This document shows positions 656 to 9,407 of a stretch of DNA of 64,000 nt, piece after piece. How positions within the stretch are numbered: the stretch's first letter is position 1; each line of letters starts with the position of its first letter. The position numbers were made by a program, and so were the translations under genes. Source of the stretch: Pseudonocardia xinjiangensis. GTDB lineage: Bacteria; Actinomycetota; Actinomycetes; Mycobacteriales; Pseudonocardiaceae. The notes under the pieces are model-generated. The model was not told the DNA's origin and did not search any database. It was given only the letters and a program-made list of their open reading frames with translations. The stretch is taken from positions 1 to 64,000 of the forward strand of contig NZ_JAAXKY010000021.1 in the NCBI RefSeq assembly GCF_012911925.1. Reading direction: 5' to 3'.

Positions 656-1195
656 ATGATCACCGAGCTTCTGATCCTCAGCTTTGCGCTCAGTCTGGAC
701 AATTTCCGGGTGGCGATCGCGCTCGGCACGGTGCCGTTCGGTTTTCGCCGTGCGGTGCAGGTCGCTCTGACGTTCGGGCTGTGGGACGGCGTAATGCCGT
801 TGGTGGGCCTGCTGGTCGGCAACTACGTCGGCGAGACCACCGGTACGGTCGCGGAGTACGTGGGGTCGGCCGCGCTGGGCGGGTACGGTTTGTATCTTCT
901 CATCGGAGCGCTGCGCAAACCTGAACCCGAACAGGTGGACCAGCCGTGGGCACTGTTCGGAATCCCGTTGTCCTTGAGCCTGGACAATCTGCTGGCCGGC
1001 GCCGGGCTGGGACTGCTCGGATTCTCTCCCTGGATCTCGGCGACGGTGTTCGGGGTCACCACGGCCCTGATGTCGTTGGTCGGGCTGCAACTCGGTCGAG
1101 CCGCGGCCCGGCTCATCCGCATTCGCTCAGATCTGCTGAGTGGTATCGCACTCATCGTCGCGGCCATCGTGCTGCCGATAGCGTTCGGCAACTAG
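656..1195 (+). CDS. mntP: MntP-like manganese efflux membrane protein
   Basis: This 179-residue protein is almost entirely hydrophobic and has the two-fold repeat of the MntP (DUF204) family. Each half carries a conserved SLDN motif: SLDNFRVAIALG near residues 14-25, and LSLDNLLAGAGLG in the second half. The Asp in each motif is important for Mn(II) export in characterised members. The length matches E. coli MntP (about 188 residues). The ATG at 656 starts directly with the first membrane helix, and its ribosome binding site is weak. It stands alone, separated from the next gene by about 275 bases in which nothing clear is seen. Manganese as substrate is inferred from the family. Confidence 0.82.
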   Translation: MITELLILSFALSLDNFRVAIALGTVPFGFRRAVQVALTFGLWDGVMPLVGLLVGNYVGETTGTVAEYVGSAALGGYGLYLLIGALRKPEPEQVDQPWALFGIPLSLSLDNLLAGAGLGLLGFSPWISATVFGVTTALMSLVGLQLGRAAARLIRIRSDLLSGIALIVAAIVLPIAFGN

Positions 1196-1471
1196 CGCGG
1201 GGCATGGCCGGGCGCCGGCCGCGGCGTGGTCCGACCGGCCGTCACGGCCGTGCTGGAGCCCGCCCGCATCGGGAACGCGGAGGAACGTGGTCTTCGGCCC
1301 CTTTGCAGACCATGGAGGGGCGGGGTACACATGAGGTGGCGCCGGGTGATCACGCGGGACATGCGCCGCGCGGTGCCCGGCAGCGGTCGGCCCGGCGGTG
1401 ACGAGCGCTCGGCGGCGTGAGCTGGGTGGGTGCTGTGCGGTGTGGGGATGGACCAAAGGCGGTTCTTCAGC

Positions 1472-2869
1472 ATGAGCGATGTGCACCGGCTCGACACCAT
1501 GTCGGGGAGTCCCGGTAGAAGCACGGTGTTCGCCGCGTGGGAGCGGTTCGTCCAGGGCGAGGATCATGTCCGTGGCGTCCGGCCCGAGGTGGTGGTCTCC
1601 TGGCATCGCTGCCGCGAGCAGTACCGGGTCGACCCACACCTGACCGAAGCTCCGCTGGCGGCGGCACACAGCGACCACACGCTCGAACAAGACGTGGTGC
1701 TGACCGAGCTGGGCGGGCTTGCGGGTGCCATGGCGCGGGAGGTGGAAGGCCTCAACGGCATCGTGACCGTCGCCGACGCCACCGGCCGGATCCTGGCCAC
1801 CTGGGGTGACCAGGCCACGGTGGCCAGAGCCGCCGACGCCAACCTCGCCACCTGGTCCTGCTGGTCGGAGGCCGGGGCCGGCACGAACGGCATGGGTACG
1901 GCGCTGGAGACGCACGGCCCGGTTCTGATCAGGGGCGCGGAACACTGGTGCCAGGCGTTCCACAGCTGGGCGTGCGCGGCCATCGCCGTGCGTGACGTGG
2001 TGACCCGCGAGCCGATCGCGGTGCTCAACATCTCGTGCTGGCGCACCCCGCTGCCCGATGCCACCGGCAGGTGGCTCTCCCATGCGGTCACCCAGACGCA
2101 GAGCACGCTGAAGGGGCGCGCCCGGGACAGTGCCGCCGAACTGATCGCCGCATTCGCCCAGGTGAAAGGGCGTGCCACGGCCGCAGTGGCCGCGGTGGAC
2201 ACCGCGGGGAACGTGGTGATCGCCGACGAGCGCGCGAGCGTGCTCATGGGTGTGCCCAGCGAGGTGCCGGCGGTCGAGCCCACCATCAGGTGGCGCACCT
2301 CCCTGCCGGACCTGATCCGTGTCGCCCAGTACGCGAGCGGGTGCGCCGCCCAGAATCCCGACTGGGTCGGCTCGACACAGATCTTCACCCATCTCGCCGA
2401 CGAGCCGGTCCCGGTCACCGTCCGGCCGGTGTTCTTCTCGGGGCAGCTGGCCGGGCACCTGATGTTGCTCGGCGCCTCCGGCGATACGCAGCCGCTCCCC
2501 ACCATGGCGCCCACCCATCCGCCCGCGAGGCCGATGCACCGGGTCGTGGCGCTACGGGAGGACCGGATGGTGCTGCTGCGGCTGCCGGAGGTCTGCTTCG
2601 CCGAGTCGGACGGCAACGACGTGTGGCTGTCCACCGAGCAGGGGCGGCTGCGCGCCGCCTCCCCGGGCCTGGACAAGCTCACCAACGAGCTGGCCGACTC
2701 CGGGTTCCTGCGGGTGCACCGCCGCTACGTGGTCAACCTCAGTCGCGTCCGGGAGATCGAGCGCGGGTTCAAGGGCGAGCTGTTCCTGGTCATGGACAGC
2801 CGGGCCAACGACGTGGTGCCGGTCTCCCGGAGGAACACGCCCGCCGTCCGTGACGCACTGGGGCTCTGA
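1472..2869 (+). CDS. GAF-domain transcriptional regulator with C-terminal LytTR DNA-binding domain
   Basis: The N-terminal two thirds resemble the sensory part of AcoR/AdhR-type regulators: VRPEVVVSWHRCRE near residue 35, then a GAF region with GTNGMGTALE and a downstream HSWACAAIAVRD. The last ~100 residues form a LytTR domain (CFAESDGNDVWL, then FLRVHRRYVVNLSRV and VPVSRR) instead of the sigma-54 AAA and Fis domains normally attached to this sensor. The ATG at 1472 is preceded by AAAGGCGG at good spacing; ATG 1448 and GTG 1430 are alternatives. It converges on the PQQ operon across a terminator, so it is a plausible, unproven regulator of alcohol-dehydrogenase expression. Confidence 0.8.
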   Translation: MSDVHRLDTMSGSPGRSTVFAAWERFVQGEDHVRGVRPEVVVSWHRCREQYRVDPHLTEAPLAAAHSDHTLEQDVVLTELGGLAGAMAREVEGLNGIVTVADATGRILATWGDQATVARAADANLATWSCWSEAGAGTNGMGTALETHGPVLIRGAEHWCQAFHSWACAAIAVRDVVTREPIAVLNISCWRTPLPDATGRWLSHAVTQTQSTLKGRARDSAAELIAAFAQVKGRATAAVAAVDTAGNVVIADERASVLMGVPSEVPAVEPTIRWRTSLPDLIRVAQYASGCAAQNPDWVGSTQIFTHLADEPVPVTVRPVFFSGQLAGHLMLLGASGDTQPLPTMAPTHPPARPMHRVVALREDRMVLLRLPEVCFAESDGNDVWLSTEQGRLRAASPGLDKLTNELADSGFLRVHRRYVVNLSRVREIERGFKGELFLVMDSRANDVVPVSRRNTPAVRDALGL

Positions 2870-2926: not shown

Positions 2927-3688
2927 TCACCAGAACTTGATGCCGGCGGCCTTCAGCCGGCGCCGGTGCTGCCGCACGGCGGTCTCGATCGCGGCGGGTG
3001 TGATGAGGTCCCCCCACACCTTCGCGGCCGTCTCCCCCTGCTCGAGCAGCATGTCCGCCTCGTCCGGGCCGATATCGGCGCGCTGGACGATGCGCGACCC
3101 GAACCCGATGTGCCAGCGCTCGTCCCGCAGGACCAGCTCGCATCCCTTGTGCACACCCGGCAGCTTGACGGACAGGCTTTCGAGCGCCTCGAGCATCGCG
3201 TGCTGTCCCGCCAGGAGGACCACGCCCTCGATCACCATGTGGTAGAGCCCGACCGCGGCGGACAGGGAGCCGTGGTTCTCGGCGAGCCGCCCGGCGGTGG
3301 CCGGCAGGCGTTCCTCGAACAGGTCGACGAGGTCGCTGCTGACGAGGCTGCGCAGAGCGTCGCGCCGTGCGGCGGGGTCGGCCCCCGGGACGCCGGCGAC
3401 CTCGGCGGCGACGAGGTCGAAGAAGCGGGCGTGGCGCGCCTCGTCACGGAGCTGGGCGCGGAAGGCCGCCTCCATCGAGCTGTCCGACGCGGCCGCCTGG
3501 TAGGCGGCGAGCTCCCCGGACACCGCTGTCTCGGCGATGACGAAGCCCGCGATCAGCCCGAGGACCCTGGCGCTCTCGGCGTCGGTGAGCTGCGGCCAGG
3601 CCTCGCGGTCGGCCGAGTAGTCGAGGGCTGTCTCGTCCCACTGCAGCGACTCGGCGAGTGTCACGAAGTGGTCGTATCCGGCGATCAC
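2927..3688 (-). CDS. R2-like ferritin-fold di-iron protein, last gene of the PQQ operon
   Basis: This 253-residue protein carries a complete di-iron carboxylate ligand set: Glu53 (AETAVSGEL), Glu83-x-x-His86 (DEARHARFF), Glu154 (VIEGVVLL) and Glu190-x-x-His193 ([10 protein letters not shown]). The spacing resembles ribonucleotide reductase R2 and R2-like oxidases, but the chain is shorter than class I R2 (about 320-370 residues) and no large subunit lies nearby. Its start overlaps the rubredoxin stop by 4 nt, so the two are translationally coupled. A di-iron oxidase or oxygenase fed electrons by rubredoxin is the natural reading. Its substrate and its link to PQQ are unknown. A ribonucleotide-reductase role is unlikely. 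Confidence 0.72.
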
Positions 3689-3918
3689 GACTCAAGGCCT
3701 CCGTCCTCCGGGAACTCGCCCGGCTCCAGCTCGCGGAAATCCGCTTTCGTGGCACCACAGATGGGACACATCCAGTCGTCAGGGATGTCCTCGAAGGGCG
3801 TGCCTGGGTCGATGCCGCTGTCCGGGTCGCCCTCCTCGGGATCGTAGATGAATCCACAGGGGATGCAGACCCATCGCGTGGTCACCGGTTCGGCCTGGGT
3901 CCGTCCGCTGACGCTCAT
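3685..3918 (-). CDS. rubredoxin
   Basis: This 77-residue iron-sulfur electron carrier has two CxxCG knuckles, [10 protein letters not shown] (Cys18, Cys21) and [11 protein letters not shown] (Cys51, Cys54). The characteristic aromatic/acidic core between them includes [19 protein letters not shown]. It has short N- and C-terminal extensions around the 53-residue core. It starts 7 nt after pqqE and overlaps the di-iron protein gene by 4 nt, so it is part of the same transcript. By family it transfers one electron at a time from an NAD(P)H-rubredoxin reductase, not encoded here, to a partner. The adjacent di-iron protein is the obvious candidate partner. Confidence 0.93.
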
Positions 3919-3925
3919 GCCGGGC

Positions 3926-5008
3926 TCAGCCGCGGTGCGGGCGGGCGACCAGCAGCTCGTCCACCGGGCGGGAACCCGCGTTGGCCTTCTCCACCGCCTC
4001 GGTCACGAGCCCGTGGTCGGGGGAGAGGTGGCAGACCGGGTCGGTCCGGGTGGCGTCGCCGGTCAGCTGGAACGCCTGGCACCGGCACCCGCCGAAGTCG
4101 AGCTCGCGGCGATCGCAGGTGCGGCACGGGTCCTGCATCCAGCCGGTGCCGCGGAACGCGGTGAACATCGGCGACTCGTCCCAGATCGTCGCCAGGGAGT
4201 CCTCGCGGACGCTGGCCCGGGGCAGCGGGAGCGTCTGCGCGGCCGGGCAGGGCAGCGCGTCGCCGTTGGGCGCCACGGTGAGCTGGCGCGACGCCCAGCC
4301 GCCCATGCACGGCTTCGGGTACTCGCTGTAGTAGTCCGGCAGGACGTGCACGATCTCCATCCGGCCGCCCAGGCGGGCCCGGGCGTCGCGCACGACCTCC
4401 TCGGCACGGGCGAGCTGGTCGCGGCTGGGCAGCAGCGCGGCCCGGTTCCGCAACGCCCACCCGTAGTACTGGGTGTTGGCCAGCTCGACGCGGTCGGCAT
4501 CCAGCTCCTCGACCAGCGCCACGATCTCGGCGATCCGGTCGATGTTCTGCCGGTGCAGCACGACGTTGACGGTCAGCGGCCAGCCGAGGTCCTTCACCAC
4601 GGCGGCGGCCTTGAGCTTGCGCTCGAACGACGGGATGCCCGCGATCCGGTCCGACGTCGCCGGCTCGTCGGCCTGCACGCTGACCTGCACGTGGTCGAGC
4701 CCCGCCGCCCTGAGGGCCTCGGCCCGCGGGCGGGAGAAGCCGATCGCGCTGGTCACCAGGTTGGTGTACATGCCCAGCTCGGCGGCCGTGCGCACCAGGT
4801 CCACCAGGTCGCGGCGCAGCAGCGGCTCGCCGCCGGAGAGGTGGCACTGCAGCACGCCCATCTCTGCTGCCTCGGTGAACACGCGCTGCCAGTCCGCCGT
4901 GGACAGCTCGTCGTCGTAGGCGGCGAGCTCCAGCGGGTTGGAGCAGTAGGCACAGGCCAGCGGGCAGCGGTAGGTGAGCTCGGCCAGTAACCCGAAGGGC
5001 CTGTCCAT
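3926..5008 (-). CDS. pqqE: PqqE, radical SAM enzyme of PQQ synthesis
   Basis: PqqE uses a radical SAM [4Fe-4S] cluster to form the carbon-carbon bond between the conserved Glu and Tyr of PqqA, the first step of PQQ synthesis. The cluster motif Cys15-x3-Cys19-x2-Cys22 (CPLACAYC) sits near the N-terminus. A SPASM-type cysteine-rich region follows at the C-terminus ([22 protein letters not shown]) and would hold auxiliary clusters. The 360-residue length is usual. The ATG at 5008 shares one base with the pqqD stop (TGATG), so the pair is translationally coupled, as expected because PqqD presents PqqA to PqqE. Confidence 0.95.
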
Positions 5009-5334
5009 CACATCGTCTCCTCGAGGATGACGTGGCGGCGGGCGGCCATGCGGACCAGGAAGTCCCGCACCTCGTCGTCCACCGGTCGCTGGTAGCGGGC
5101 ACGCAGCTCGTCCACGATCGCGGCGACCGTCCGGGACCCGTCGCACAGGCCGACGACGTCCGCGCCGGTTGCGTTGAGGACGATCACCGACTCCGGTGCG
5201 AGCAGGACGTGCTTGCCGCGTGAGCGGTCGAAATGCAGCCGTAGGTGCGGCCCGAGCCGGGGACGGACCGTGTCCGGCGGCAGTGCGGATAGAGGGGCCG
5301 GGGCGGCCGGGGTGAGCCCGGTGTCATTCGGCAT
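5008..5334 (-). CDS. pqqD: PqqD, PqqA-binding peptide chaperone
   Basis: This small (108-residue) RiPP-recognition-element protein binds the PqqA precursor and delivers it to PqqE. It shows the family core: RPRLGPHLRLHFDR, then LLAPESVIVLNATGADVV, the CDGSRTVAAIVDEL helix and a C-terminal VRDFLVRMAARRH helix. The ~20-residue Pro/Ala-rich N-terminal extension may be disordered. It overlaps pqqC upstream by 11 nt and pqqE downstream by 1 nt. Confidence 0.94.
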   Translation of the reverse strand: MPNDTGLTPAAPAPLSALPPDTVRPRLGPHLRLHFDRSRGKHVLLAPESVIVLNATGADVVGLCDGSRTVAAIVDELRARYQRPVDDEVRDFLVRMAARRHVILEETM

Positions 5335-6067
5335 AGGCCTGGTCGATCGCGTCCATCATGGACCAGAGCACGTCGCACTTGAACGACAGCGCCTCCACGG
5401 CGCGGTCCTGCGCGTCGGGGGTCAGGCAGTGCGCGGTGACGACCTCCAGCGCGTGCTCGGAGTCGCGCGGCGCCTGCTCGAGCCGGGCCCGGAAGTAGGC
5501 CAGCCCGTCCGGGTCGATCCAGGTGTAGCAGCGCTCGAACGCGGCCAGGCGCTCGGCCATCAGGTCCGGTGCGAACAGCTCGGTAAGCGACGACGCGACC
5601 GCGTCCACCCACGGCTTCGTGCGGGCGAACGTCACGTAGGCGTCGACGGCGAACCGCACGCCGGGCACGAGGTGGCGGTGGTCGAGGACCTCCTCGCGGG
5701 TCAACCCGCATGCCTCGCCCAGGCGCAGCCAGGCCTCGATGCCGCCCTCCCCGGCGACGACCCCGTCGTGGTCGACGATGCGGCGGATCCAGCGCCGGCG
5801 AACCTCCACGTCAGTGCAGTTGGACAGGATCGCCCCGTCCTTGCGGGGGATGTTCTCCTGGTAGTAGAAGCGGTTCGCCACCCAGCCGCGGATCTGGGCG
5901 GGGGAGAGCGTTCCCTCGTTCATCCGCACATGGAACGGGTGGGCGCTGTGGTAGCTCTTCGAGTGCGCGCGCAGGCGCTCCAGGAACGCCGTGGTACCCG
6001 GGCCCGCCGTCGCGGTCCGTCCGTTCGCCGCTACTCCGTTGCCGTTCGATGTCGTCGTCATCGTCAT
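5324..6067 (-). CDS. pqqC: PqqC, pyrroloquinoline-quinone synthase
   Basis: PqqC performs the final cyclisation and oxidation of AHQQ to PQQ using O2, without a metal. The 247-residue protein has the heme-oxygenase-like fold signatures SYHSAHPFHVRMNEG, RFYYQENIPRKDGAILSN and the WIRRIVDHDG segment. The first ~25 residues (Thr/Asn/Gly-rich) are an extension relative to most PqqC. A GGAGG inside the end of pqqB serves as ribosome binding site, and the gap to pqqB is only 5 nt. Confidence 0.95.
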   Translation of the reverse strand: MTMTTTSNGNGVAANGRTATAGPGTTAFLERLRAHSKSYHSAHPFHVRMNEGTLSPAQIRGWVANRFYYQENIPRKDGAILSNCTDVEVRRRWIRRIVDHDGVVAGEGGIEAWLRLGEACGLTREEVLDHRHLVPGVRFAVDAYVTFARTKPWVDAVASSLTELFAPDLMAERLAAFERCYTWIDPDGLAYFRARLEQAPRDSEHALEVVTAHCLTPDAQDRAVEALSFKCDVLWSMMDAIDQAYAE

Positions 6068-6072
6068 CGTGC

Positions 6073-6963
6073 CTAGACCTCCACCTCGAGCCCGTCGTGC
6101 GCCACGTCCATGCCGCCCTCGGTGACCAGGCGGCGCTCCGGAGCGTCCTCCAACAGGATCGGATTGGTGTTGTTGATGTGGATGTAGATCTTGCGGTCGA
6201 TCGGTAGCGGGGACAGCAGCTCGAGGCTGCCCCCGGGGCCGCCGATCGCGAGGTGCCCCATGTCGCGTGCGGTCTTCTGAGCCAGCCCGAGCCGGATCAG
6301 CTCGTCGTCGTGCCAGGTGGTGCCGTCGATGAACAGGCAGTCGATCCCGTCGAACTCGTCGCGCACGGGCGGCGTCAGCTCCTGCACACCCGGCAGGTAC
6401 ACCGCCGCACGTCCGGTGGTCTCGTCGGTCAGGCGGTAGCCCACCACCCGTCCCTGGTCGTTCCCGGTGCCGAACCGGTCGTGCTTGGCCGTGGGGACGT
6501 CGAACGCCCGGTAGGAGATCCCGCCGAGCGACACCTCCCGTCCCGGGAGGACCGGGTGCCAGTCGACGGGGCAGAAGCGCTCCAGCGTGTTCAGGAACCC
6601 GGTGCCATCGCGCAGCGTCGCGTGCGTCGCGGCCGTCGCGTGCAGCTGGATGCCGCGCCCTTCGCGCAGCAGCAGCAGGCCCAGGGTGTGGTCGATCTCG
6701 GCGTCGGTGAGCAGCACCGCCTGAAGCGGCGTCACCCGCCCGTCGCCGGGATGCATGCCGGGGAACGCCTCGAACTGGGTCCGGATGTCGGGGGAGGCGT
6801 TGAACAGGAACCAGCGTCGCCCGTCCGGGCTCGCCGCGATCGACGACTGGGTGCGCGCCCGGGCCGGCCGGGACCCGTCACGGACCGCGCCGCACGTCGG
6901 GCAGCTGCAGTTCCACTGCGGGTACCCGCCCCCGGCCGCCGATCCCAGCACTCGCAGCCTCAT
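6073..6963 (-). CDS. pqqB: PqqB, metallo-beta-lactamase-fold PQQ synthesis protein
   Basis: PqqB is a metallo-beta-lactamase-fold protein; characterised members hydroxylate the tyrosine part of the PQQ intermediate. The chain opens with RVLGSAAGGGYPQWNCSCP, the diagnostic start including the CxC-x-x-C zinc knuckle. It continues with TQSSIAAS and LLTDAEIDHTLGLLLLR, the equivalent of the metal-binding region with DxEIDHTLG in place of HxHxDH. The length is 296 residues. The ATG at 6963 follows AAGGAGGAGG at ideal spacing; the open frame extends further upstream but without family similarity. Confidence 0.95.
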   Translation of the reverse strand: MRLRVLGSAAGGGYPQWNCSCPTCGAVRDGSRPARARTQSSIAASPDGRRWFLFNASPDIRTQFEAFPGMHPGDGRVTPLQAVLLTDAEIDHTLGLLLLREGRGIQLHATAATHATLRDGTGFLNTLERFCPVDWHPVLPGREVSLGGISYRAFDVPTAKHDRFGTGNDQGRVVGYRLTDETTGRAAVYLPGVQELTPPVRDEFDGIDCLFIDGTTWHDDELIRLGLAQKTARDMGHLAIGGPGGSLELLSPLPIDRKIYIHINNTNPILLEDAPERRLVTEGGMDVAHDGLEVEV

Positions 6964-7073: not shown

Positions 7074-7175
7074 TCAGGCCTCCGAGCGGGCGATGTACAT
7101 GGTCACCTCCGGGGCACACCCGATCTCTTCGAACTCGGGTGCCTCCCACTCGAGCTGGGTGATGGTGGACTCCAT
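7074..7175 (-). CDS. pqqA: PqqA, 33-residue PQQ precursor peptide
   Basis: PqqA is a ribosomal peptide whose Glu and Tyr side chains become PQQ. The 33-residue sequence begins MESTITQLEW and contains the essential E-x-x-x-Y core (PEVTMY), here followed by IARSEA. The ATG at 7175 has an almost perfect AAAGGAGGTGAC ribosome binding site, fitting the high expression such precursors need. It lies between the dehydrogenase gene and pqqB. The spacer of about 110 bases to pqqB is the largest after the first genes of the block. Confidence 0.95.
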   Translation of the reverse strand: MESTITQLEWEAPEFEEIGCAPEVTMYIARSEA

Positions 7176-7234: not shown

Positions 7235-8926
7235 TCAGTCCTCGGGCAGGGCGAAGACGAACAGCGCATCGCCCGCGTTGGCGCCGAGGAATCCGGGGAA
7301 GAAGCCCTCGACCCAGCCACCCCAGCCGGTGGGCACCGCGATGTACTGGCGGCCGTCCACGCTGTACGGGGTGGGGCTGCTGTGGTGCCCGCTCCCGCAC
7401 TGGAACGACCACAGCTTCTCACCGGTCTCGGCGTCCAGGGCGACGAAGTCACCCGTCGGCGTGCCCTGGAACACCAGTCCGCCCGCCGTGGCCAGCGTCG
7501 AGGCGCACATCGGGTACTCGTTGCGCCAGCGCCACTTCTCCTCGCCGGTCAGCGGGTCGATGGCGGCCACGTACCCGTAGAAGTCCTCGAGGTCCACGGC
7601 CACGCCCGCGCCCCAGTACGGGATGCTCTCCTTGAACTCGCGGCGCCGACGGGTGGCCGTCGCCCCGACTTCCTGGACCGGCACGTAGATCAGCCCGGTC
7701 TGGGGGCTGTAGGACATGTGCGTCCATTCCTTGCCCCCGGCGGGCCCCGGCCAGAAGTGCACCGGCTCGCCCTCCTTGTCCGGATACACCTTGGGGGTGA
7801 CCTTCCCGTCGGGGGTGATCTCCCCCCAGGTGATCCGGTCCACGAAGGGGAACACCCGGACCAGCTCGCCATTGGTCCGGTCGAGGACGAAGAAGTACCC
7901 GTTCTTGTCCGCGTGCGCGAGCAGCTTGCGCCCGTCGGGGGCGTCGAACAGGAGGTTCTCCATCGTGGAGTCGTAGTCCCACAGGTCGTGCGGGGTGAAC
8001 TGGTAGTGCCAGCGGATCTCGCCGGTGTTCACGTCCACCGCGACGACGCTGTCGGTGTAGAGGTTGTCGCCTTCGCGGACTCCGCCGTCGAAGTCGGGCG
8101 CCGGGTTGCCCGTCCCCTGGAAGAGGAGTTCCTGCTCCGGGTCGTAGGTGGGGGTGACCCAGCAGTTCCCACCGCCGCGCTGCCACGCCTCGCCGTCGGC
8201 CGGCCAGGTCTCGGACCCGGGCTCGCCGGGCTTGGGGATCATGTAGCAGCGCCAGCGGCGCTCCCCTGTCTGGGCGTCGAACGCGTCGAGGTGCCCGCGG
8301 ACCCCGAACTCCCCGCCGGAGCTCCCGATGATGACCATGTCCTTCACCAGCAGCGGCGCGACGGTACCGCTCTCCCCGGCGCGCACGTCACCGTTGACGA
8401 CGTCGAAGACGATCTCGCCGTTCGTCGCGTCGAGGGCGATGAGGTGGGCGTTGAGGGTGCAGAGGTACACCTTCCCGTGCCCAACGGCCACGCCGCGGTT
8501 CACGTTCCCGCAGCACAGCGAGACGTCGTACGGGGAGGGGTACTTGAACCGCCAGAGCTCTTCGCCGGTCGTCGCGTCGATGGCCCAGACCTTGCCTTCC
8601 GGGCCCGAGACGTACATGACCCCGTCCACGACGAGCGGGGAGGCCTCGAACGAGTAGGTCGACGCGCCGGAGTGCATGCCGGTCGCGCCGGCCTGGAACA
8701 CCCACGCGGGCGTCAGGCGCCGGACGTTCTCCTTGTTGATCTGGTCCAGCGTGCTGTAGCGCTGGCCGTCATAGGTGCCGTAGTAGGTGAGCCAGTTGTG
8801 TGGCTCCGAGCCCGCTTCGAGAATGCGCTCGTAGTTGACGTTCTCGGTTACCTGCGGCGCACTTCCCTTCACGGCGCTGAGTGAGGTGAGGCGGACGGCT
8901 TGACCTGCGTCGACGTAGTCGGTCAT
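7235..8926 (-). CDS. PQQ-dependent methanol/ethanol-type alcohol dehydrogenase, predicted lanthanide type
   Basis: This is a 563-residue quinoprotein beta-propeller. At least seven tryptophan-docking repeats (A-x-D-x-x-T/N-G-E pattern, such as AIDATTGEELWRF and ALDAETGEKLWSF) are visible. The vicinal disulfide Cys138-Cys139 (SLCCGNVNRG) over PQQ is present, as are metal ligands Glu206 (GGEFG) and Asn274 (GTGNP) and catalytic Asp317. The residue two after it is Asp319 (HDLWDYD), the extra ligand characteristic of XoxF/PedH lanthanide-dependent enzymes. Unusually, no signal peptide is seen: the N-terminus is polar (MTDYVDAGQAVRLTS). The ATG at 8926 is preceded by AAAGGAG. Methanol or a short alcohol is the likely substrate class. 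Confidence 0.9.
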   Translation of the reverse strand: MTDYVDAGQAVRLTSLSAVKGSAPQVTENVNYERILEAGSEPHNWLTYYGTYDGQRYSTLDQINKENVRRLTPAWVFQAGATGMHSGASTYSFEASPLVVDGVMYVSGPEGKVWAIDATTGEELWRFKYPSPYDVSLCCGNVNRGVAVGHGKVYLCTLNAHLIALDATNGEIVFDVVNGDVRAGESGTVAPLLVKDMVIIGSSGGEFGVRGHLDAFDAQTGERRWRCYMIPKPGEPGSETWPADGEAWQRGGGNCWVTPTYDPEQELLFQGTGNPAPDFDGGVREGDNLYTDSVVAVDVNTGEIRWHYQFTPHDLWDYDSTMENLLFDAPDGRKLLAHADKNGYFFVLDRTNGELVRVFPFVDRITWGEITPDGKVTPKVYPDKEGEPVHFWPGPAGGKEWTHMSYSPQTGLIYVPVQEVGATATRRRREFKESIPYWGAGVAVDLEDFYGYVAAIDPLTGEEKWRWRNEYPMCASTLATAGGLVFQGTPTGDFVALDAETGEKLWSFQCGSGHHSSPTPYSVDGRQYIAVPTGWGGWVEGFFPGFLGANAGDALFVFALPED

Positions 8927-8942
8927 CACCTGCTCCTTTCTG

Positions 8943-9407
8943 CTACGGGCGCGGCTGGGCGGGACGGTCGAGCTTGGCCTCGGCTGGAACTTCCCCGCCG
9001 ATGACGATCGCCCCGGTCAGGCCGCGGCCCTCGTCGTTACCGGTTGTGGAGCCGTACCAGTAGGTGCCCGGGCCCGGCAGGTTGAGCGTGGCCGTCCCCT
9101 TGGAATGGTTGACCAGCCAGATGATCAGGTGGTCCCCGATGGTGGGCAGCACCGCGCAGTGGGTGTTCTTGTCGTCGTTGATGAGGGTGAGCTCGAGCTC
9201 GCCGCCGTGGGGCAGGATGATGATCGCGGGGTCCCAGACCAGCTCGTCCTCAGGGATCCGGATGGTGGCGCGCATTCGGCCGTCAGAATCCTCCTCGGCG
9301 TGTCCGATGTTCCCCGTCCCCAGTTGCCGGCCCAGGGCGAGCCTGTTCTGCACGGCCAGGCCGGCCTCGTCCAACTGCTCTGATCGCTCGTTCGAAGTAG
9401 TCGTCAT
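8943..9407 (-). CDS. cupredoxin-like PQQ-associated protein
   Basis: This 154-residue protein is first in the PQQ block, 16 nt upstream of the dehydrogenase. It has a beta-rich, cupredoxin-like core: DELVWDPAIIILPHGGELEL, then INDDKNTHCAVLPT, and near the end PGPGTYWYGSTTGN. It resembles the small PQQ-associated family named after MSMEG_3727 (recalled, not searched). The positions of His, Cys and Tyr-Gly are compatible with a metal site, but the full His-Cys-His-Met set of blue copper proteins cannot be confirmed. No signal peptide is visible, matching the dehydrogenase. It could be the electron acceptor of the dehydrogenase. The ribosome binding site AGAAGGG precedes ATG 9407. Confidence 0.72.
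   Translation of the reverse strand: MTTTSNERSEQLDEAGLAVQNRLALGRQLGTGNIGHAEEDSDGRMRATIRIPEDELVWDPAIIILPHGGELELTLINDDKNTHCAVLPTIGDHLIIWLVNHSKGTATLNLPGPGTYWYGSTTGNDEGRGLTGAIVIGGEVPAEAKLDRPAQPRP

Follow-up and report, generated by a model that had tools for sequence, protein, structure and literature searches.

The last two genes of an operon for a PQQ-dependent alcohol dehydrogenase (ADH) and its cofactor in Pseudonocardia xinjiangensis encode a rubredoxin (Rd) and a protein related to the R2 subunit of ribonucleotide reductase (R2), and the association of this pair with the ADH/PQQ system is real and specific. The operon lies in a stretch of 64,000 nucleotides (contig NZ_JAAXKY010000021.1), here called the window. 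As judged from sequence comparison, the pair follows one clade of ADHs rather than PQQ synthesis. As to its function, we infer that R2 is probably a metal oxidase, derived from R2lox, that activates O2 in the service of this ADH/PQQ system, with rubredoxin as its usual electron donor.

The genes are read from the minus strand in the order M3727 (MSMEG_3727 family), ADH, pqqA, pqqB, pqqC, pqqD, pqqE, Rd and R2, so that the pair closes the operon M3727–ADH–pqqABCDE (Table 1). The original prediction had described a rubredoxin and an R2-like protein fused into the PQQ operon with spacings of 4-7 bases. The Pfam matches and the same-strand order bear out the pair and its place in the operon, but the two genes are separate, not fused; 7 bases lie between the pqqE stop and the Rd ATG, as predicted, and the figure of 4 is an overlap of the R2 GTG start with the Rd TGA stop (GTGA), not a gap. 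This close spacing and overlap make translational coupling in pqqE-Rd-R2 likely. Every operon gene except R2 passes the cut-off of an NCBIfam model, with pqqA, B, C, D and E on equivalog models and Rd narrowly (90.5 versus 90 bits). The start of pqqB was set where the TIGR02108 match begins, which is residue 64 of a longer open reading frame. A consensus scan of the operon, which says little for an actinobacterium, gave no promoter, and in the same weak test terminator-like sites were not above those of shuffled sequences. Among named relatives, Pseudonocardia alaniniphila is the closest at this locus, with an R2 that is 89% identical.

Table 1. Genes of the operon and its surroundings in the window, with the model matches on which they are assigned.
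Feature	Position	Strand	Match or remark
MntP-family gene, putative Mn efflux	656-1195		near operon
LytTR-domain regulator, convergent with operon	1430..2869	+	PF04397 61 bits
R2-like protein, predicted di-metal oxidase, 253 aa, GTG start	2927..3688	-	Pfam Ribonuc_red_sm E 5e-11, 43 bits (cut-off 33.6)
Rubredoxin, 77 aa, four-Cys site	3685..3918	-	PF00301 80.9 bits, E 7e-23
pqqE	3926..5008	-	TIGR02109 524 bits (cut-off 381)
pqqD	5008..5334	-	TIGR03859 79 bits (cut-off 46)
pqqC	5324..6067	-	TIGR02111 317 bits (cut-off 240)
pqqB	6073..6963	-	TIGR02108 377 bits (cut-off 245)
pqqA precursor peptide, EVTMY core	7074..7175	-	TIGR02107 31 bits (cut-off 20)
PQQ-dependent alcohol dehydrogenase (ADH), WDYD motif	7235..8929	-	TIGR03075 626 bits (cut-off 480)
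M3727, MSMEG_3727-family PQQ-associated protein	8943..9407	-	TIGR04339 260 bits (cut-off 75)

In a profile search of 327 genomes of the family (E at most 1e-40 for R2), R2 turned up in 34, which represent 4 of 46 genera, and M3727 in 103. All 34 R2 genomes are among these 103, and MSMEG_3727-type PQQ clusters thus divide into 34 genomes with R2 and 69 without. The probability of such an overlap is about 1e-19 (hypergeometric, ignoring kinship, with the M3727 places closest to R2). For 33 of the 35 R2 genes, M3727 is on the same contig at a distance of 546-5261 bases; in genome G037 it is on a different contig, and G580:C19 (L074) carries a second R2 copy that adjoins a pqqA and a gene for a Na/Ca exchanger. 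Of 394 genomes sampled across the class, just 2 have M3727, the window genome being one of them. In a sample of 150 genomes, a close R2 (58-100% identity) was present in 13, again counting the window genome, and other matches were 25-33% identical, whereas pqqE was present in 101. All 13 R2 genomes have pqqE on the same contig within about 5.5 kb of R2, although G037 holds no more than a fragment of the gene.

When the scan was widened to named genomes, it yielded 44 R2 loci, mapped by tblastn, from Pseudonocardia, Actinomycetospora, one Saccharopolyspora, metagenome-assembled genomes (Pseudonocardiaceae, Nocardioidaceae, Nocardiopsis, Acidothermales) and Solirubrobacterales. A gene of the PQQ system lies within 3.2 kb of R2 in 37 of the 44, on the same strand in 36 of these 37. 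The pair is therefore not found mostly away from pqq genes, and this linkage supports the earlier proposal that it is an additional, putatively O2-using metal oxidase of the PQQ system. Among the seven loci with no such gene, five are limited by their contigs (in L077 and L082 the contig ends within the R2 gene, in L050 and L072 within about 400 bases of it, and L087 is a 5.2 kb contig) and two, L084 and L091, are true exceptions. L084, from a Solirubrobacterales metagenome-assembled genome, holds a PQQ-linked and a remote R2-like gene in tandem (L084:9058-10777), and no pqq gene on the stretch.

The place of the pair within the cluster varies. It follows pqqE in the window, L048 and L051, precedes M3727 in many Pseudonocardia loci, stands between ADH and pqqA in Saccharopolyspora and between pqqA and pqqB in Actinomycetospora, and Solirubrobacterales have other orders around R2. 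Constant company in a changing gene order argues for a shared function and not for a frozen operon. In 10 of the 44 loci, all Actinomycetospora, two pqqA genes flank the pair; clusters of this kind are L062-L067, L069-L071 and L079 (and L041). In two loci R2 accompanies pqq genes while the stretch shows no ADH: pqqBCDE-R2 in L089 and pqqA-R2 in L074. Remote homologues from other families of the phylum, 29-38% identical, gave no match for pqq, ADH, M3727 or rubredoxin by tblastn at any of 20 loci, which were mostly the best-scoring of the 60 matches listed and covered stretches of 3.9-14 kb. We found no report of a rubredoxin/R2 pair in a pqq operon in the open-licence literature searched.

The PQQ genes evidently do without the pair, since 20 loci that have no R2 hold the complete set of M3727, ADH and pqqABCDE, some of them in genomes of the same genus. 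These loci weaken a general need for the pair in making PQQ, and an extra PQQ-synthesis step needed by all is rejected. The comparison set was 40 pqqE clusters and 40 M3727 loci chosen as R2-less from longer lists, in which neither R2 nor Rd occurs (0 of 80); 5 of the pqqE clusters include M3727 within the stretch covered. The window genome itself has a second M3727-ADH-pqqABCDE cluster (G000:C253:36000-55900, L044) with neither Rd nor R2, which is counted among the 20. We also considered a distinct PqqA in the R2 clusters and rejected it, as clusters that have R2 and clusters that lack it encode almost identical PqqA cores, with no clear difference. Four genomes of the Actinomycetospora group g42 (L161-L164) have a second M3727 with no close PQQ-ADH in the 14 kb covered.

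The ADHs themselves show what the pair follows. ADHs from loci with R2 are 83-94% identical to the window ADH, the two Solirubrobacterales loci that have both genes reach 75%, and ADHs from loci that lack R2 reach 67-74%. A maximum-likelihood tree built from 78 distinct ADHs groups 35 R2-linked sequences in a clade with support of 100/100 on a branch of 0.33 changes per column, and none of the 41 R2-less ADHs falls inside it; since the trees include close relatives, these numbers do not stand for independent events. Support is only weak (72/10) for separating all R2-linked from all R2-less ADHs. Twenty residue columns mark the clade, including Tyr451 (35/35) and Tyr472 (34/35), and the two Solirubrobacterales ADHs with R2 have neither tyrosine. 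The marked clade probably differs in function from its sister clades. Inspection by eye showed no evident signal peptide in any of the 78 ADHs (hydrophobic runs of at most 6 in the first 45 residues), and the ADHs of these clusters may be cytosolic. The start of M3727 in the window is likewise without an evident signal peptide, and such starts are unusual for quinoprotein dehydrogenases. The best solved relative of the ADH is the quinoprotein ethanol dehydrogenase 6zcv, in which WDFD aligns with the WDYD of the ADH; the extra Asp of this motif is a mark of lanthanide enzymes.

R2 has the complete set of di-metal ligands given in the original prediction, E53, E83, H86, E154, E190 and H193, invariant in 37 of 37 alignment rows, and the four Glu and two His are kept both in 28 of 28 PQQ-linked rows and in 37 of 37 homologues outside the group. 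By its predicted model the overall fold is of the R2lox type, and the 50 structure matches listed were to R2lox and ribonucleotide reductase R2, with no further family. The relation is distant, as structural alignment with R2lox of M. tuberculosis, G. kaustophilus and S. erythraea (PDB 3ee4, 4hr0, 7qbp) gave 19-24% identity, and the NCBIfam R2lox models scored 41.8-71.5 bits, below their cut-offs of 194-346. A Pfam scan at E up to 0.1 returned Ribonuc_red_sm alone and no rubrerythrin domain. R2 has its superfamily and metal site in common with class I ribonucleotide reductase R2 (NrdB/NrdF), but the neighbour genes and the structure rule out an ordinary reductase subunit, and no gene for a large-subunit partner is among the operon genes assigned by Pfam and NCBIfam.

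R2 also shares with R2lox a Tyr/Val pair: Tyr149 and Val56, present in 28 of 28 PQQ-linked proteins, correspond to the ether cross-link residues Tyr162/Val72, so that R2 keeps the residues for a predicted Tyr149–Val56 cross-link. It differs from R2lox in its length of 253 aa, its linked rubredoxin, its PQQ operon and the lining of the ligand cavity. The tunnel position Ala171 of R2lox is Leu158 in the window R2, and Leu or Phe in 28 of 28 PQQ-linked proteins (Leu in 21/21, and among Solirubrobacterales Phe in 5/7 and Leu in 2/7), whereas all 37 homologues outside the group have Ala. Just before ligand His193, Trp192 is found in 28 of 28 versus Arg in 37 of 37 outside. Cavity residue Tyr175 is replaced by Gln in 27 of 28, and Gln also occurs in 19 of 20 remote homologues. 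In the available parts of earlier reports, the conserved Ala171 lines the R2lox ligand tunnel, A171F blocks it, and a protein with Phe at this position keeps its O2 reaction while fatty acid is excluded (PMC6399176); class I ribonucleotide reductase R2 likewise has a bulky Phe there, as R2 has a bulky residue (PMC6399176), and Tyr175 is described as conserved in the R2lox cavity (PMC4118035).

Rd has two CxxC pairs (CIPCG and CPICG), matches the Pfam rubredoxin model and is the sole rubredoxin match in the assembly. Among the 13 R2 genomes of the 150-genome sample, 12 have a rubredoxin immediately 5' of R2; the other, G122 (P. hydrocarbonoxydans, L060), has R2 and no rubredoxin match in its genome. 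In the wider scan a rubredoxin was found in 32 of the 44 R2 loci, and the 12 remaining are L072, L077 and L082 (contig end at or near R2), L060, L074 and seven Solirubrobacterales loci, where neither a regular expression nor tblastn gave a match (0/7). Rubredoxin is thus the usual and not an obligate partner, and the rubredoxin-free G122 and Solirubrobacterales loci indicate that R2 can use another donor or none. Pseudonocardiaceae-type and Nocardiopsis R2 rows end in IKFW or a near form (IRFW, IKFF), two of them with three extra residues. This tail, a possible docking site for rubredoxin, is missing from the Solirubrobacterales rows and is kept in G122, which has no Rd.

We compared Rd with the rubredoxins of 12 loci that have no R2. 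The longest matches were in L216, L217 and L218 (56% over 68 residues), and the remaining ones reached 37-62% over shorter stretches. The L216 rubredoxin adjoins an FA_desaturase protein, as do those of L212, L219 and L222, the L212 one being beside an AlkB-like protein and 62% identical over 50 residues. At L217 (L217:1739-4678) the rubredoxin gene is flanked by those for a short-chain dehydrogenase and for a protein with electron-transfer flavoprotein domains, which gives the family a further dehydrogenase-rubredoxin set. As a clue to the partner, the sequence type of Rd would suit an oxygenase as well as a dehydrogenase. AlkB systems have a rubredoxin beside a non-heme O2-activating di-iron enzyme; the partner there is of the FA_desaturase type, whereas here it is Ribonuc_red_sm. 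M. tuberculosis is described as having rubA-rubB-alkB and a PQQ-like gene set (PMC3438311, available part).

From these observations we tentatively prefer, as a possible role, that Rd and R2 form an O2-reducing redox module dedicated to one clade of probably cytosolic PQQ ADHs. The ADH, as PQQH2, would pass electrons, directly or through M3727, to rubredoxin; reduced rubredoxin would deliver them singly to a Mn/Fe or Fe/Fe site of R2, which would reduce O2, so that O2 would be the final acceptor for turnover of this ADH clade. An electron-transfer oxidase is favoured over turnover of a large bound substrate because Leu158 fills the tunnel position and Trp192 stands beside His193, and coupling to the ADH is preferred since the pair, besides this filled position, follows the ADH rather than PQQ synthesis. 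The electron source and the final product remain guesses. Reduction of Rd by the ADH is likewise a guess, and M3727, which clusters carry whether or not they have R2, may be the usual acceptor. The loci with R2 and no ADH in the stretch (L074, L089) or no PQQ-system gene (L084, L091) also count against an ADH-coupled module, as do the R2 loci that have no rubredoxin (G122 and Solirubrobacterales) and the weak support for the overall split of R2-linked from R2-less ADHs.

Two other roles, hydroxylation of a small substrate and modification of the ADH or its cofactor, are close rivals of the O2-reducing module. In the first, which we think rather unlikely, R2 with rubredoxin would hydroxylate a small molecule and this ADH clade would oxidise the resulting alcohol, on the model of pathways from alkane hydroxylase and rubredoxin to alcohol dehydrogenase. 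A matched substrate would predict that R2 tracks one ADH clade, as it does, and R2 retains the ligands and cross-link pair of R2lox, a two-electron oxidant. By analogy, the FA_desaturase-type neighbours of the L216 rubredoxin, of comparable likeness to Rd, and of the L212 rubredoxin would suit an oxygenase as well. The available part of a report on GkR2loxI has it degrading C10-C22 alkanes in E. coli lysate, its gene being clustered with alcohol and aldehyde dehydrogenase genes (PMC10867098), and this is the single published R2lox activity known to us. However, the tunnel substitution that 28 of 28 PQQ-linked proteins carry is at the very residue where A171F is reported to block R2lox (PMC6399176, available part), and Pfam on selected neighbours showed no recurring aldehyde dehydrogenase or rubredoxin reductase.

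In the second, R2 would oxidise PqqA, PQQ or the ADH, for example at a tyrosine, and so make a variant cofactor or a matured enzyme that only this ADH clade requires. This would fit the long branch and the specific columns of the clade, with Tyr451 and Tyr472 among them, the R2 genes that stand beside pqqA (L074) or pqqBCDE (L089) with no ADH in the stretch, and the Actinomycetospora pairs between two pqqA genes; R2lox is known, from the available parts of two papers, to modify its own Tyr and Val (PMC6060897, PMC6399176). We consider it unlikely, as the PqqA core is nearly the same in R2-less clusters, full pqqABCDE sets exist without R2, the two R2-linked Solirubrobacterales ADHs have neither Tyr, and a filled tunnel is unsuited to PQQ as a bound substrate.

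PqqE is O2-sensitive, PqqC releases peroxide, and rubredoxins are known to act together with ferritin-like di-iron proteins in reductive scavenging. The original prediction had offered removal of O2 or peroxide for PqqC, but a scavenger that guards the PqqE clusters or removes peroxide from PqqC or the dehydrogenase is very unlikely, although both enzymes are encoded in the operon and a scavenging-type role for rubredoxin is cited in the WhiB4 paper (PMC3438311, available part), given the 20 full sets that do without the pair, in the same genus and even in the window genome, and the absence of a Pfam rubrerythrin match in R2.

A related known system is the alkane monooxygenase cluster of GkR2loxI, where an R2lox gene also lies near dehydrogenases (alcohol, aldehyde). 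As far as the available part of that report goes, it has the R2lox-type Ala171, unlike R2, and apparently a different type of dehydrogenase (PMC10867098); its main text makes no mention of rubredoxin (PMC10867098). The MSMEG_3721-3727 cluster of M. smegmatis, compared here by its description, has M3727, PQQ-ADH and pqq genes in common with the window (PMC6529628, available part). The same source reports that M. smegmatis with this cluster needs mycofactocin for growth on ethanol under the tested conditions (PMC6529628).

The physiological role of R2lox-type proteins was called unknown in papers of 2014 (PMC4118035) and 2018 (PMC6060897), and alkane hydroxylation was claimed in a later one (PMC10867098), in each case in the part available. 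Here such a protein occurs together with a rubredoxin and a known partner enzyme, so that its donor and function can be tested directly, and the system offers a handle on how quinoprotein dehydrogenases that have no evident signal peptide dispose of electrons. We give only a small chance to a closed loop within a single operon, in which a cytosolic PQQ ADH reduces rubredoxin, which in turn powers a di-metal oxygenase derived from R2lox with no need of NAD(P)H. If true, O2 activation would be paid for by the alcohol oxidation it serves, rubredoxin would, as far as the literature searched goes, be the first electron donor dedicated to a protein of the R2lox type, and a quinoprotein would have a new way to reach O2.

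Other genes recur around these clusters. Kin of the LytTR regulator, which has also a weak DhaR-like match far below cut-off, stand upstream of M3727 beside R2-less M3727-ADH clusters in the tblastn map, and for this reason the LytTR protein is perhaps a regulator of the system. Genes for MntP, GDT1 and a Na/Ca exchanger are repeated neighbours of PQQ-ADH clusters, whether these hold R2 or not, and our guess is that they may supply Ca, lanthanide or Mn. The Na/Ca exchanger is present in 37 of the 60 loci first clustered, and kin of MntP are next to R2 in L085 and L086.
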